DNA of 64,000 nt from Ampullaceana balthica (Eukaryota; Mollusca; Gastropoda; Lymnaeidae), in contig CALYLW010000037.1 of NCBI GenBank assembly GCA_944989445.1, forward strand, positions 1,960,501 to 2,024,500. The letters run 5' to 3'. A program made the position numbers and the translations under genes. The notes beneath the pieces were generated by a model that worked only from the letters and a program-made list of their open reading frames with translations, was not told the origin of the DNA and did not search any database. Below are positions 43,901-46,900 of this stretch, piece by piece. Each line of letters begins with the position of its first letter. The first letter of the stretch is position 1.

Positions 43901-46900
43901 AATTTTTATTTATTGATTTTTATGATACCATTTATACTTTTTCTGCAATGAAATGCAATGATAACTAAAGAATACAATTATTTTAAAGGGTGTGGCCTTC
44001 CGCTAAAATTGACTACCACAAAGTGGCCCCTTAGCCAAAACAATTGCCCAACCCTGCTCCACTGAATATTTAATTAAGGATATACTAAGTTTTGAATGTA
44101 AAATCATTTTTCTCTATTCAGGTCAATAACAATGGCTATGGAACTCATCCTTTCTTCCTGAATTTGGAACCATCAAATGGTTCTGGACCAGCTGATGCTC
44201 ATGGTGTCTTTTTGCTAAATAGTAATGCAGGGGGTGAGTTGAAGTGAATGGTTAGTTCTGAATCTTTGAATGATATTTTCCCTTTAAGGTGTTAGGAGGT
44301 TGATTTACAAGTTCAGAATTTGTCATTGTTAACTAAGGATAATGATAAAAGAAGAAAAAAATTAAAGAAATAAGTAAATTTGCCTTTTCAGAAGTGGCAC
44401 TCCAACCTTTTGGCACGGCCGGTGCTGTCACCTATCGCTATCTCGGTGGTGTTTTAGATTTCTTCATAGTATTGGGGCCCGAGCCAGTCCAAGTTGCAAT
44501 TCAGTTCACAGAAATTGTGGGTCGAACGTTCCTCCCACCATTTTGGTCCCTGGGTTTCCACCTGTGTAAATGGGGCTACAACTCAGCTAAGGGGCTGCAG
44601 GATGTGATACAAAGAAACAGAAATGCTTCCATCCCTTATGTGAGTGGTTTTAATTATCATGGTCACTGGAAAAAGGAGATGCTGACGTGAAGGACAAGAA
44701 AATATCTCTCATTTATGATGTCAGCATGGTTTATATAGTTTCCATAAAAATGAAATGTTATATAGTTTCCATAAAAATGAAATGTTAAAGCATTGGCTGC
44801 AAATAAATTTTGCCATTTCATTTTAAGCTTAGCAGCATATTTTTTAACTTTAAAAAAATGAAATTCAGTGTCCTTCGAGTCGGTTCACCTCCTTAGTCCA
44901 TGACTTCAATGAAAACAATATGAAATTCTATCTAATGTATGTTGTATTCAAAACAGAGGTAGCACTTCAGCCGTTTGGGCAGAACCAGGATGGTGCGATC
45001 ACTTACCGAATGCTTGGTGGCATCCTTGATTTTTTCATTATCTTGGGACCCAGTCCTCTTTCAGTCGCCTCACAGTACACTGAAATCACTGGCCGGACAC
45101 AGTTCCCCCCGTTTTGGTCATTGGGGTTTCATATCTGCAAATATGGGATTGCCAATTCTGCAGCACTGCGAGACATGATAAAAAGGAACAGGGATGCCAA
45201 TATGTCTTATGTATGCTTATGTGTCCTCTTTGCTATCCTTTACTGGGTTGTTGTATTTTAATGCATTAAATATATATTTTCTATATGGTCTATGCTAAGG
45301 AATTAGCTAAGTAAATTGTGCCTCAGAGCTTAGGAATAAGCAGCAGGGTCAATTTTGGTGACATGTAAAAACATGCCTGAGTATAGCAAACAAGAATAGA
45401 ATTAATTTAGATTTTAAACATTTTCTCTTCATTCCTTATTCAAAAATTTTCTAGTCATTTTTAGACTTACCATATATACTTGATTATAAGTTGATCTCGA
45501 GTATAAGACGACACCCCAATTAGAGACTTGAAAAGTGGAATTTAAAAATGTTTAAATATGATATCTATCGTGTTACTGAAATTAAAAAAAATAAGTTATG
45601 CTAGTATAAGTCGACCCCCTGATTTTGGCCTCGAAATTTTGAAAAAAAATCTCGACTAATACTCGATACTTGAGTATGTACATTAGAGAAGTAATTGACT
45701 TATAAAAAATAAATGATGATGTCAACTAATATTTTATTTATTGTATTTATTAATTCTAAAGCATTATCATGAACTTTTTGAACTGACGCCCCTTTGATTT
45801 TTAAAAATAAATCAGTATAAAAAATTGTTAATGACTTTTTTCTTTTTTCAATGCATCAAGGATGTGCAATGGACAGATATAGATTACATGGATGGCCGTA
45901 AAGACTGGACCTATGACAAGAACAACTTTGCTGACCTACCCAACATTGTTCAAGATCTCCACAACAACCAACAAAGATATATCATTATGGCAGTAAGTAG
46001 GACTCAATCCCCTTTTACAAAACTCACAAAATTAAAACATTTTCATTATTCATATTCATTAGGCTGTGCAATAAATGCTACAAAAAATGTTAATTCTCTA
46101 ACAACCTTTGCCTATTACAACATCCACATTTTTGATTTTTGCCTCAACTAAAATTGACTTTTGTTTTGCATGTAGGATCCTGCAATATCAAGTGAGCAAC
46201 CCTCAGGAAGTTATCCACCCTTTGATGATGGTAAGCAAATGGATGTATTTGTCAAGAATGCCAGTGGTGATATTCTTGTAGGCTCAGTAAGTACATATTG
46301 ATATTGAGTAGTCAGATTATATAGTTCTATCGAATGGGATAAGTCAATAAACAATGATATTTTTTTATATGCAAAACTCAGTTTTTAGAACCTGCTCAAC
46401 TTTATTTGAGATAATATGGAAATAAGTGGTGAATTAAATTTTTGAAAAGATTTCCTTTCTTTTTTTTTCAATTACTATCAAAATCAAATATATTGGTCTG
46501 TTGGTTTAAATTGATTTATTTAATCAGTTCAAATGCAAAAATCAGTAAGCAAAGGCCAAGAGTTAATGAAAATATATTAAAAAATTACAATTTCAGTTTT
46601 GATGTCATAATATCAATTTAAGACAACAAACTATTGATGATACCCAATATTTGTCCCCAGGGTCTTTAATTATCTAATAACTCAACAACCTTGATAGGAC
46701 GTTCATTCACTGATATGGCATTTATTCACTGATATTTAGTCCAAGTCTACAATCACTGATCATGTTTTAGACATTTTAAATTGAACTTAGTTTAAACAGA
46801 CATATAACTTTTAAATCTAACTTTTTAAAATCGCAATTTTATTAAATGAATTTTTTTTTCCAATTTGTAAAACATTCCTTCCAGGTTTGGCCTGGCAAGA

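Follow-up and report, generated by a model that had tools for sequence, protein, structure and literature searches.

The window, by which we mean the whole 64-kb stretch of Ampullaceana balthica DNA that was analysed, contains two tandem genes of the trefoil plus GH31 type, gene 1 starting at about 1.7 kb and gene 2 at 37,974. Gene 2 was modelled through 58326 as 18 exons with either 4a or 4b in place, and the model is stop-free across 939 or 941 amino acids. Its product is 91% identical to a Lymnaea stagnalis protein over 945 columns in the 4b form, and 89% identical in the 4a form. The 4a protein scores above the cut-off for PF00088, PF13802, PF01055 and PF21365 (the trefoil, N-domain, barrel and C-domain profiles), and a 364-residue piece containing 4b does so for PF01055. 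Gene 2 is a membrane-anchored trefoil plus GH31 alpha-glucosidase of the GAA/MGAM/SI trefoil subgroup. Its features are as follows.

37974..38567, plus strand: exon 1, with a cytosolic tail, a transmembrane helix (by eye) and the trefoil domain (Pfam PF00088)
39466..39608, plus strand: exon 2 (gene model)
40645..40816, plus strand: exon 3a (gene model)
44122..44233, plus strand: exon 3b, ending in phase 1
44392..44639, plus strand: exon 4a, Trp type, HLCKWGY, 83 codons, grouping with the B. glabrata X1 exon (support 98)
44640..44956, plus strand: 4a-4b intron, with unusually strong folding and itself as sole genome-search match
44661..44696, plus strand: 5' arm of the main intron stem in the predicted fold, paired with 44869-44905
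44869..44905, plus strand: 3' arm of the main intron stem in the predicted fold
44910..44950, plus strand: predicted hairpin across the 4b pyrimidine tract, its loop holding a branch-point-like CTAAT at 44932-44936 (by eye)
44957..45210, plus strand: exon 4b, Tyr type, HICKYGI, 85 codons, weak donor GTATGC
45861..45992, plus strand: exon 5 (DVQW...), entry phase 0
46176..46286, plus strand: exon 6
46885..46998, plus strand: exon 7
47157..47244, plus strand: exon 8, containing DMNEP, which we take to be the nucleophile motif
47548..47665, plus strand: exon 9
49658..49794, plus strand: exon 10, containing HWLGDN, presumably the acid/base motif
51576..51727, plus strand: exon 11
51885..52027, plus strand: exon 12
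54156..54231, plus strand: exon 13
54537..54718, plus strand: exon 14
54893..54981, plus strand: exon 15
56188..56240, plus strand: exon 16
58174..58326, plus strand: exon 17, the final modelled exon; the gene may extend further

Two repeats were noticed downstream of the exon pair. The intron after exon 9 contains a CCGATA-rich 151-nt tandem repeat in 4.2 copies (48081-48710), and the 3' end of exon 10 together with its donor consists of a 40-nt unit repeated 4.2 times (49763-49929), which creates four consecutive GTGAGT donors; reading beyond the first of these leads, by eye, to an in-frame TAG.

Gene 1 has a single counterpart of the pair.

7717..7970, plus strand: gene 1 exon 4, single and 4b-like, 77.6% identical to 4b and 63.5% to 4a, with Asp at the Trp/Tyr site

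At that site, the remaining members of the exon tree described below carry Trp, Tyr, Phe or His. One gene 1 exon (~7056-7355) equals gene 2 exons 3a and 3b combined, an intron of ~3.3 kb having been gained or lost. On the minus strand, 2608-6534 holds a long non-LTR retrotransposon frame (endonuclease, reverse transcriptase, RNase H) that reaches the start of gene 1 exon 2; the acceptor region of this exon looks damaged by eye, and gene 1 may be broken or altered at its 5' end. Elsewhere in the assembly, contigs C106, C2183, C1016 and C553 each hold several matches to alpha-amylase family exons and are probably gene clusters.

An earlier note on this DNA described 4a and 4b as two homologous versions of one exon, 248 and 254 nt long and 317 nt apart, with AG/GT borders, entry phase 1 and exit phase 0, and all of this was borne out at the coordinates given above. 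Their peptides share 63.5% identity across 85 columns, and tblastn against the window returned an E value of 1.4e-35, so the resemblance is not due to chance. The note also stated that the resulting enzymes would differ in 83-85 residues, which is incorrect: 83 and 85 are the numbers of residues encoded, and the residue changes affect 29 of 83 aligned codons, alongside a gap of two codons. A further 37 codons differ by synonymous changes only, dN being 0.30 and dS saturated, a pattern which indicates that both exons are under constraint. Searches of the 1.10-Gb genome with 4a and with 4b each gave three strong matches, namely 4a, 4b and gene 1 exon 4, and each exon had one perfect match; the weaker matches, five for the 4a query and four for 4b, were all on other contigs.

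Either exon can be read on its own, as 3b-4a-5 and 3b-4b-5 are both open. Joining 4a to 4b makes 3b-4a-4b-5 run into a TAG at codon 425, which is the second of 4b, and skipping both exons shifts the frame of 3b-5, with a stop at codon 354, 13 codons past the junction codon. The claim that the frame itself enforces the use of one exon or the other therefore stood, but the argument is generic, and would be valid for any tandem copy of exon 4, because the exon is asymmetric (length modulo 3 = 2). The premature stops at codons 425 and 354 lie 1,643 and 1,354 nt upstream of the last modelled junction. In vertebrates, messages with a stop well before the last junction undergo nonsense-mediated decay, and by this usual rule the double-inclusion and skipping messages would be decayed. 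Loss of frame is one of three enforcing mechanisms described for human exons in a passage of PMC5740500. We consider it highly probable that 4a and 4b are spliced in a mutually exclusive manner.

The splice sites had been called good, which is true of the 4a donor and of both acceptors, whereas the 4b donor is weak. On a scale built from the 16 other gene 2 donors, of which 13 score at least 6.5 and three below 0, the 4a donor is strong with a score of 8.2 and the 4b donor (TAT/GTATGC) reaches 0.11.

The 317-nt intron between the two exons has a predicted folding energy of -76.9 kcal/mol, with z-scores of -4.3 and -4.7 in two runs, compared with -1.75 or higher in 16 other intron pieces, a hand-picked subset from both genes. 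Across the whole window, 6 of 201 tiles gave a z-score below -4 (15 shuffles each), at least one of them a plain repeated inverted repeat, and the intron stem is thus not exceptional within the window. The main stem begins 21 nt past the 4a donor and stops 51 nt before exon 4b. In a genome search that skips very common words, the intron had a single match, to itself; within the window, its inner parts weakly match 54435-54496. A perfect 27-nt tandem repeat also lies in this intron (44731-44784). We rejected an origin of the stem as a multi-copy inverted-repeat transposon, since the intron matches only itself whereas another inverted repeat of this window, used as a control, produced 84 matches. 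The near-perfect inverted repeat at 42796-43000, with at least 84 genome matches, is probably a small transposon.

Several known ways of enforcing exclusive splicing were considered and set aside. All four splice sites are GT-AG and U2-like by eye, which speaks against U2/U12 incompatibility. At 317 nt, the intron seems too long for plain steric exclusion of the short-intron kind, unless the stem is counted, and docking/selector pairing is disfavoured by the weakness of inverted repeats between introns. The branch-point-like CTAAT sits, by eye, about 20 nt before 4b, so that no distant-branch-point mechanism of the OGDH kind is needed; this weighs against such a mechanism and is not decisive. 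The intron stem itself could bring the 4a donor close to the 4b branch site, with 21 and 51 nt of the intron left outside the stem, and could thereby hinder direct joining of 4a to 4b, a role that we regard as doubtful.

The exon pair recurs in gene models of other gastropods. The predicted B. glabrata isoforms X1 and X2, of 958 amino acids each, are distinguished by 33 residues, every one of them in the 85-residue exon 4, X1 carrying a 4a-type and X2 a 4b-type exon. These isoforms are already in databases under the name lysosomal alpha-glucosidase-like X1/X2. A second B. glabrata pair, P0016/P0022 (UniProt A0A2C9K195 / A0A2C9K1A8), differs at 34 of 958 residues, again all in exon 4. The idea that one locus makes two enzymes by way of either exon is supported by X1 and X2, annotated gene models that differ only here. 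Both exon types are present among the proteins of B. pfeifferi and Bulinus truncatus. One B. pfeifferi model includes both exons, joined by a 14-residue linker that begins VS, and does not use the canonical 4a-4b junction; read-through of a GTGAGT-like donor would give such a linker. Bulinus truncatus has one model per exon type, and the 188 residues they share after the exon differ at one site. The L. stagnalis model contains 4b only, and in one Plakobranchus model a 45-residue Tyr-type piece comes after a Trp-type exon. In Candidula the two types occur in separate proteins, one Trp-type and one Tyr-type, that are 78% identical over 661 columns and hence come from different genes. Exon 4a of A. 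balthica has 83 codons, compared with 85 in the other full-length euthyneuran exons. By identity, the proteins closest to gene 2 are those of freshwater snails (among the best 120 of 276 and the best 120 of 185 matches); by score, two-domain fish and mammal enzymes exceed some freshwater snail proteins among the matches listed. A third protein search, with an alignment as the query, revealed no additional euthyneuran relatives among the best 120 of 1,368 matches.

To place the duplication in time we used trees of the exon and of the gene body. In the exon tree (38 sequences; the near-identical P0017, P0018, P0019 and P0022 omitted, and ena26, ena30 and jgi36 assigned by tree position alone), the lymnaeid and planorbid 4a exons form a clade with a support of 98. 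The planorbid 4b group has 96 and the lymnaeid 4b group 99, A. balthica 4b joining the L. stagnalis exon in the latter and then, with a combined support of 72, the B. glabrata X2 exon. Constraining the exons to group by species cost 34-35 log-likelihood units (16 sequences; AU p 0.0036 and 0.0009), and the rejection of this grouping makes the duplication older than the lymnaeid-planorbid split. Deeper grouping by exon type, across Hygrophila, Stylommatophora and Plakobranchus, has supports of 33, 39 and 45, and a lineage-specific origin of the pair is compatible with the data (28 sequences; AU p 0.33), so we limit the age claim to lymnaeid-planorbid depth. In a gene-body tree built without exon 4 (22 sequences), the land-snail paralogues group together (100), lymnaeid and planorbid gene 2 form a clade (100), and gene 1 joins outside it at 98. 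If the deeper exon grouping is true, gene duplicates would afterwards have retained one exon type each; single-isoform annotation could produce an identical one-type-per-gene picture.

The motifs hint at the deeper grouping. HICKYGI occurs in 8 of the 38 sequences, every one of them either from a gene like gene 2 or like those of land snails, or else the second piece in Plakobranchus. HLC[KR]WGY occurs in 21 of 38, and is also found in two cephalopods, a chiton, one Nucella protein, a hemichordate and Xenopus GAA. Any suggestion that 4a came first loses weight because other gastropods have Tyr at this site, H[LM]C[KR]YGY being present in Littorina, Babylonia, another Nucella protein and Haliotis as well as in Capitella.

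The key position within the two motifs is residue 401 in the 4a form, a Trp, and residue 403 in the 4b form, a Tyr. We counted it by Hygrophila exon clade, because typing euthyneuran exons by the motif itself would be circular: Trp is found in 5/5 sequences of the 4a clade and Tyr in 5/5 gene-2 sequences of the 4b clade, into which the gene 1 exon with its Asp also falls. PDB alignments place the 4a Trp on a Trp of human GAA and on a Tyr of MGAM. The offsets of the alignment end points (392-162 and 364-162) equate the site with NtSI Trp327 and NtMGAM Tyr299, assuming no later gap, and an Asp-Ile pair 28-29 residues further on corresponds to D355/I356 and D327/I328 as numbered in parts of PMC10574772 and PMC9612090. 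In the R. obeum enzyme the aligned chain position 172 is residue 169, if three tag residues precede it. The site is among the active-site residues listed in sections of the same two papers (PMC10574772, PMC9612090). Trp327 is thought to be key for the alpha-1,6 specificity of NtSI, Y299W and Y1251W in the two MGAM domains raised isomaltose hydrolysis, and W169Y switched the specificity of the R. obeum enzyme from 1,6 to alpha-1,4 bonds, according to passages of PMC9612090; a passage of PMC10574772 also ties Trp327 to higher isomaltase activity.

The residue is only one of several differences. Besides it, 28 more residues and the two-residue gap distinguish 4a from 4b. The exon had been assigned to the catalytic barrel, and it does contain the first barrel strand and helix; the assignment failed in that the exon includes the end of the N-terminal beta domain, with about half of it preceding the Pfam barrel (in the 4a protein the exon covers residues 341-423 and the barrel domain begins at residue 387). 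In structure models of B. glabrata X1 and X2 (pLDDT 82.2 and 82.7, pTM 0.84 each), the exon spans residues 336-420 and comprises the last N-domain strands, two linking helices, barrel strand 1 and helix 1. Residue 398 (Trp/Tyr) lies directly past barrel strand 1, with similar local confidence in both models. In a fold search, the X1 model gave TM-scores by query length of 0.85 to human GAA, 0.87 to NtSI and 0.86 to NtMGAM. Both human MGAM domains have Tyr at the key site, and human NtSI and GAA have Trp. In marine snail relatives outside Euthyneura the site is occupied by Tyr, Trp, Phe or His, and no exon pair was seen in their models. Human GAA hydrolyses both bond types. One residue does not settle specificity, because GAA with its Trp acts on both bonds, the marine snails vary, and the other differences between 4a and 4b change along with it.

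Taken together, we propose that an old tandem exon duplication gave rise to 4a and 4b, that each transcript in the animal would use one of them, and that wrong transcripts with both exons or neither may be cleared by nonsense-mediated decay. The swap may then alter substrate preference through the Trp (4a) or Tyr (4b) subsite residue, 4a favouring alpha-1,6 bonds (isomaltose) and 4b alpha-1,4 bonds (maltose). By analogy with the related enzymes, we put the chance that the swap yields an isomaltase-leaning versus a maltase-leaning enzyme just short of even. More speculative is the joint reading that snails toggle a digestive alpha-glucosidase between an alpha-1,6-leaning 4a form and an alpha-1,4-leaning 4b form by splicing, that the pair was present before freshwater snails, land snails and sacoglossan slugs diverged, that land-snail and gene 1 duplicates kept one type, and that the intron stem enforces the choice; as a whole we think this unlikely, though conceivable.

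Mutually exclusive splicing could also be real while the swap has little bearing on bond specificity and instead adjusts stability, trafficking or pH optimum, or is nearly neutral, a reading that overlaps with the splicing part of our own and that we hold to be a serious candidate without quite calling it probable. It would fit with the 29 differing residues and 2-codon gap being scattered across the exon, with the exon lying about half outside the Pfam barrel, and with GAA cleaving both bond types with its Trp. It accounts less readily for the way Trp and Tyr track the exon clade in Hygrophila (5/5 and 5/5 gene-2 sequences), and for the inclusion of the key site among published active-site residues, as given in parts of PMC10574772 and PMC9612090. 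That one exon is a decaying relic in A. balthica, leaving the gene with a single enzyme, seems very improbable: the weak 4b donor, the 83 codons of 4a against 85 elsewhere and the 4b-only L. stagnalis model would agree with it, but both exons are open with intact AG/GT borders, they group with B. glabrata X1 (4a) and with L. stagnalis and B. glabrata X2 (4b), and dN is 0.30 despite saturated synonymous sites.

The origin of 4b within gene 2 may likewise be questioned, as 4b shares 77.6% identity with exon 4 of gene 1 compared with 63.5% with 4a, which would be expected had gene conversion or exon shuffling brought it in from gene 1 or a different tandem paralogue. The AU test also allowed a topology with gene 1 outside both gene-2 exon groups (p 0.185), so more than one order of events would fit. 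Both exons are already present in the planorbid orthologue of gene 2, however, and the gene-body tree places gene 1 outside lymnaeid and planorbid gene 2 (100, 98), so that any such conversion or shuffling would be older than the lymnaeid-planorbid split; we consider this origin improbable. An assembly artefact or collapsed haplotypes, for which no support was found, can practically be dismissed given the 36.5% amino-acid divergence with saturated synonymous sites, the single perfect genome match of each exon, and the conservation of the pair in another genus, which we count as refuting it. Duplication within gene 2 with exclusive use of the two exons is the reading that we retain.

Splicing of this type is known, and coq-2 is already a precedent for substrate switching by such exons. 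The coq-2 exons 6a/6e of helminths, annelids and molluscs are likewise two mutually exclusive homologous exons in an enzyme, whose swap remodels the core and switches the substrate, as tested in C. elegans (passages of PMC7434440); that is a different enzyme, and the snail switch is proposed from one known subsite residue. OGDH exons 4a/4b also represent an ancient duplicated, mutually exclusive exon in a metabolic enzyme, where the swap changes calcium sensitivity and distant branch points near the 5' splice site enforce the choice, according to parts of PMC7969005, whereas the snail branch-point-like site lies, by eye, about 20 nt before 4b. Dscam-type splicing similarly involves intronic pairing beside alternative exons (sections of PMC6071210 and PMC8042237), but the snail gene has one predicted stem inside the 4a-4b intron and weak inverted repeats between introns. 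Among the top-ranked results of a literature search at the level of titles and abstracts, we found no paper on this exon pair. The new element is a digestive-type glycosidase in which swapping the exons exchanges a residue with a known influence on bond specificity.

A splicing choice is thereby tied to a residue with a measured effect on bond specificity in related enzymes, and the question of whether an animal retunes its sugar digestion by splicing is reduced to a two-construct experiment. The locus is also a possible case of exon duplication and gene duplication substituting for each other across snail lineages. Human sucrase-isomaltase and maltase-glucoamylase share the trefoil plus GH31 architecture and the Trp/Tyr alternative at one subsite position, the two types residing in separate domains and genes in humans and in two exons of one gene in the snail. 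If our proposal is true, snails would achieve with two exons what humans do with the domains of sucrase-isomaltase and maltase-glucoamylase.
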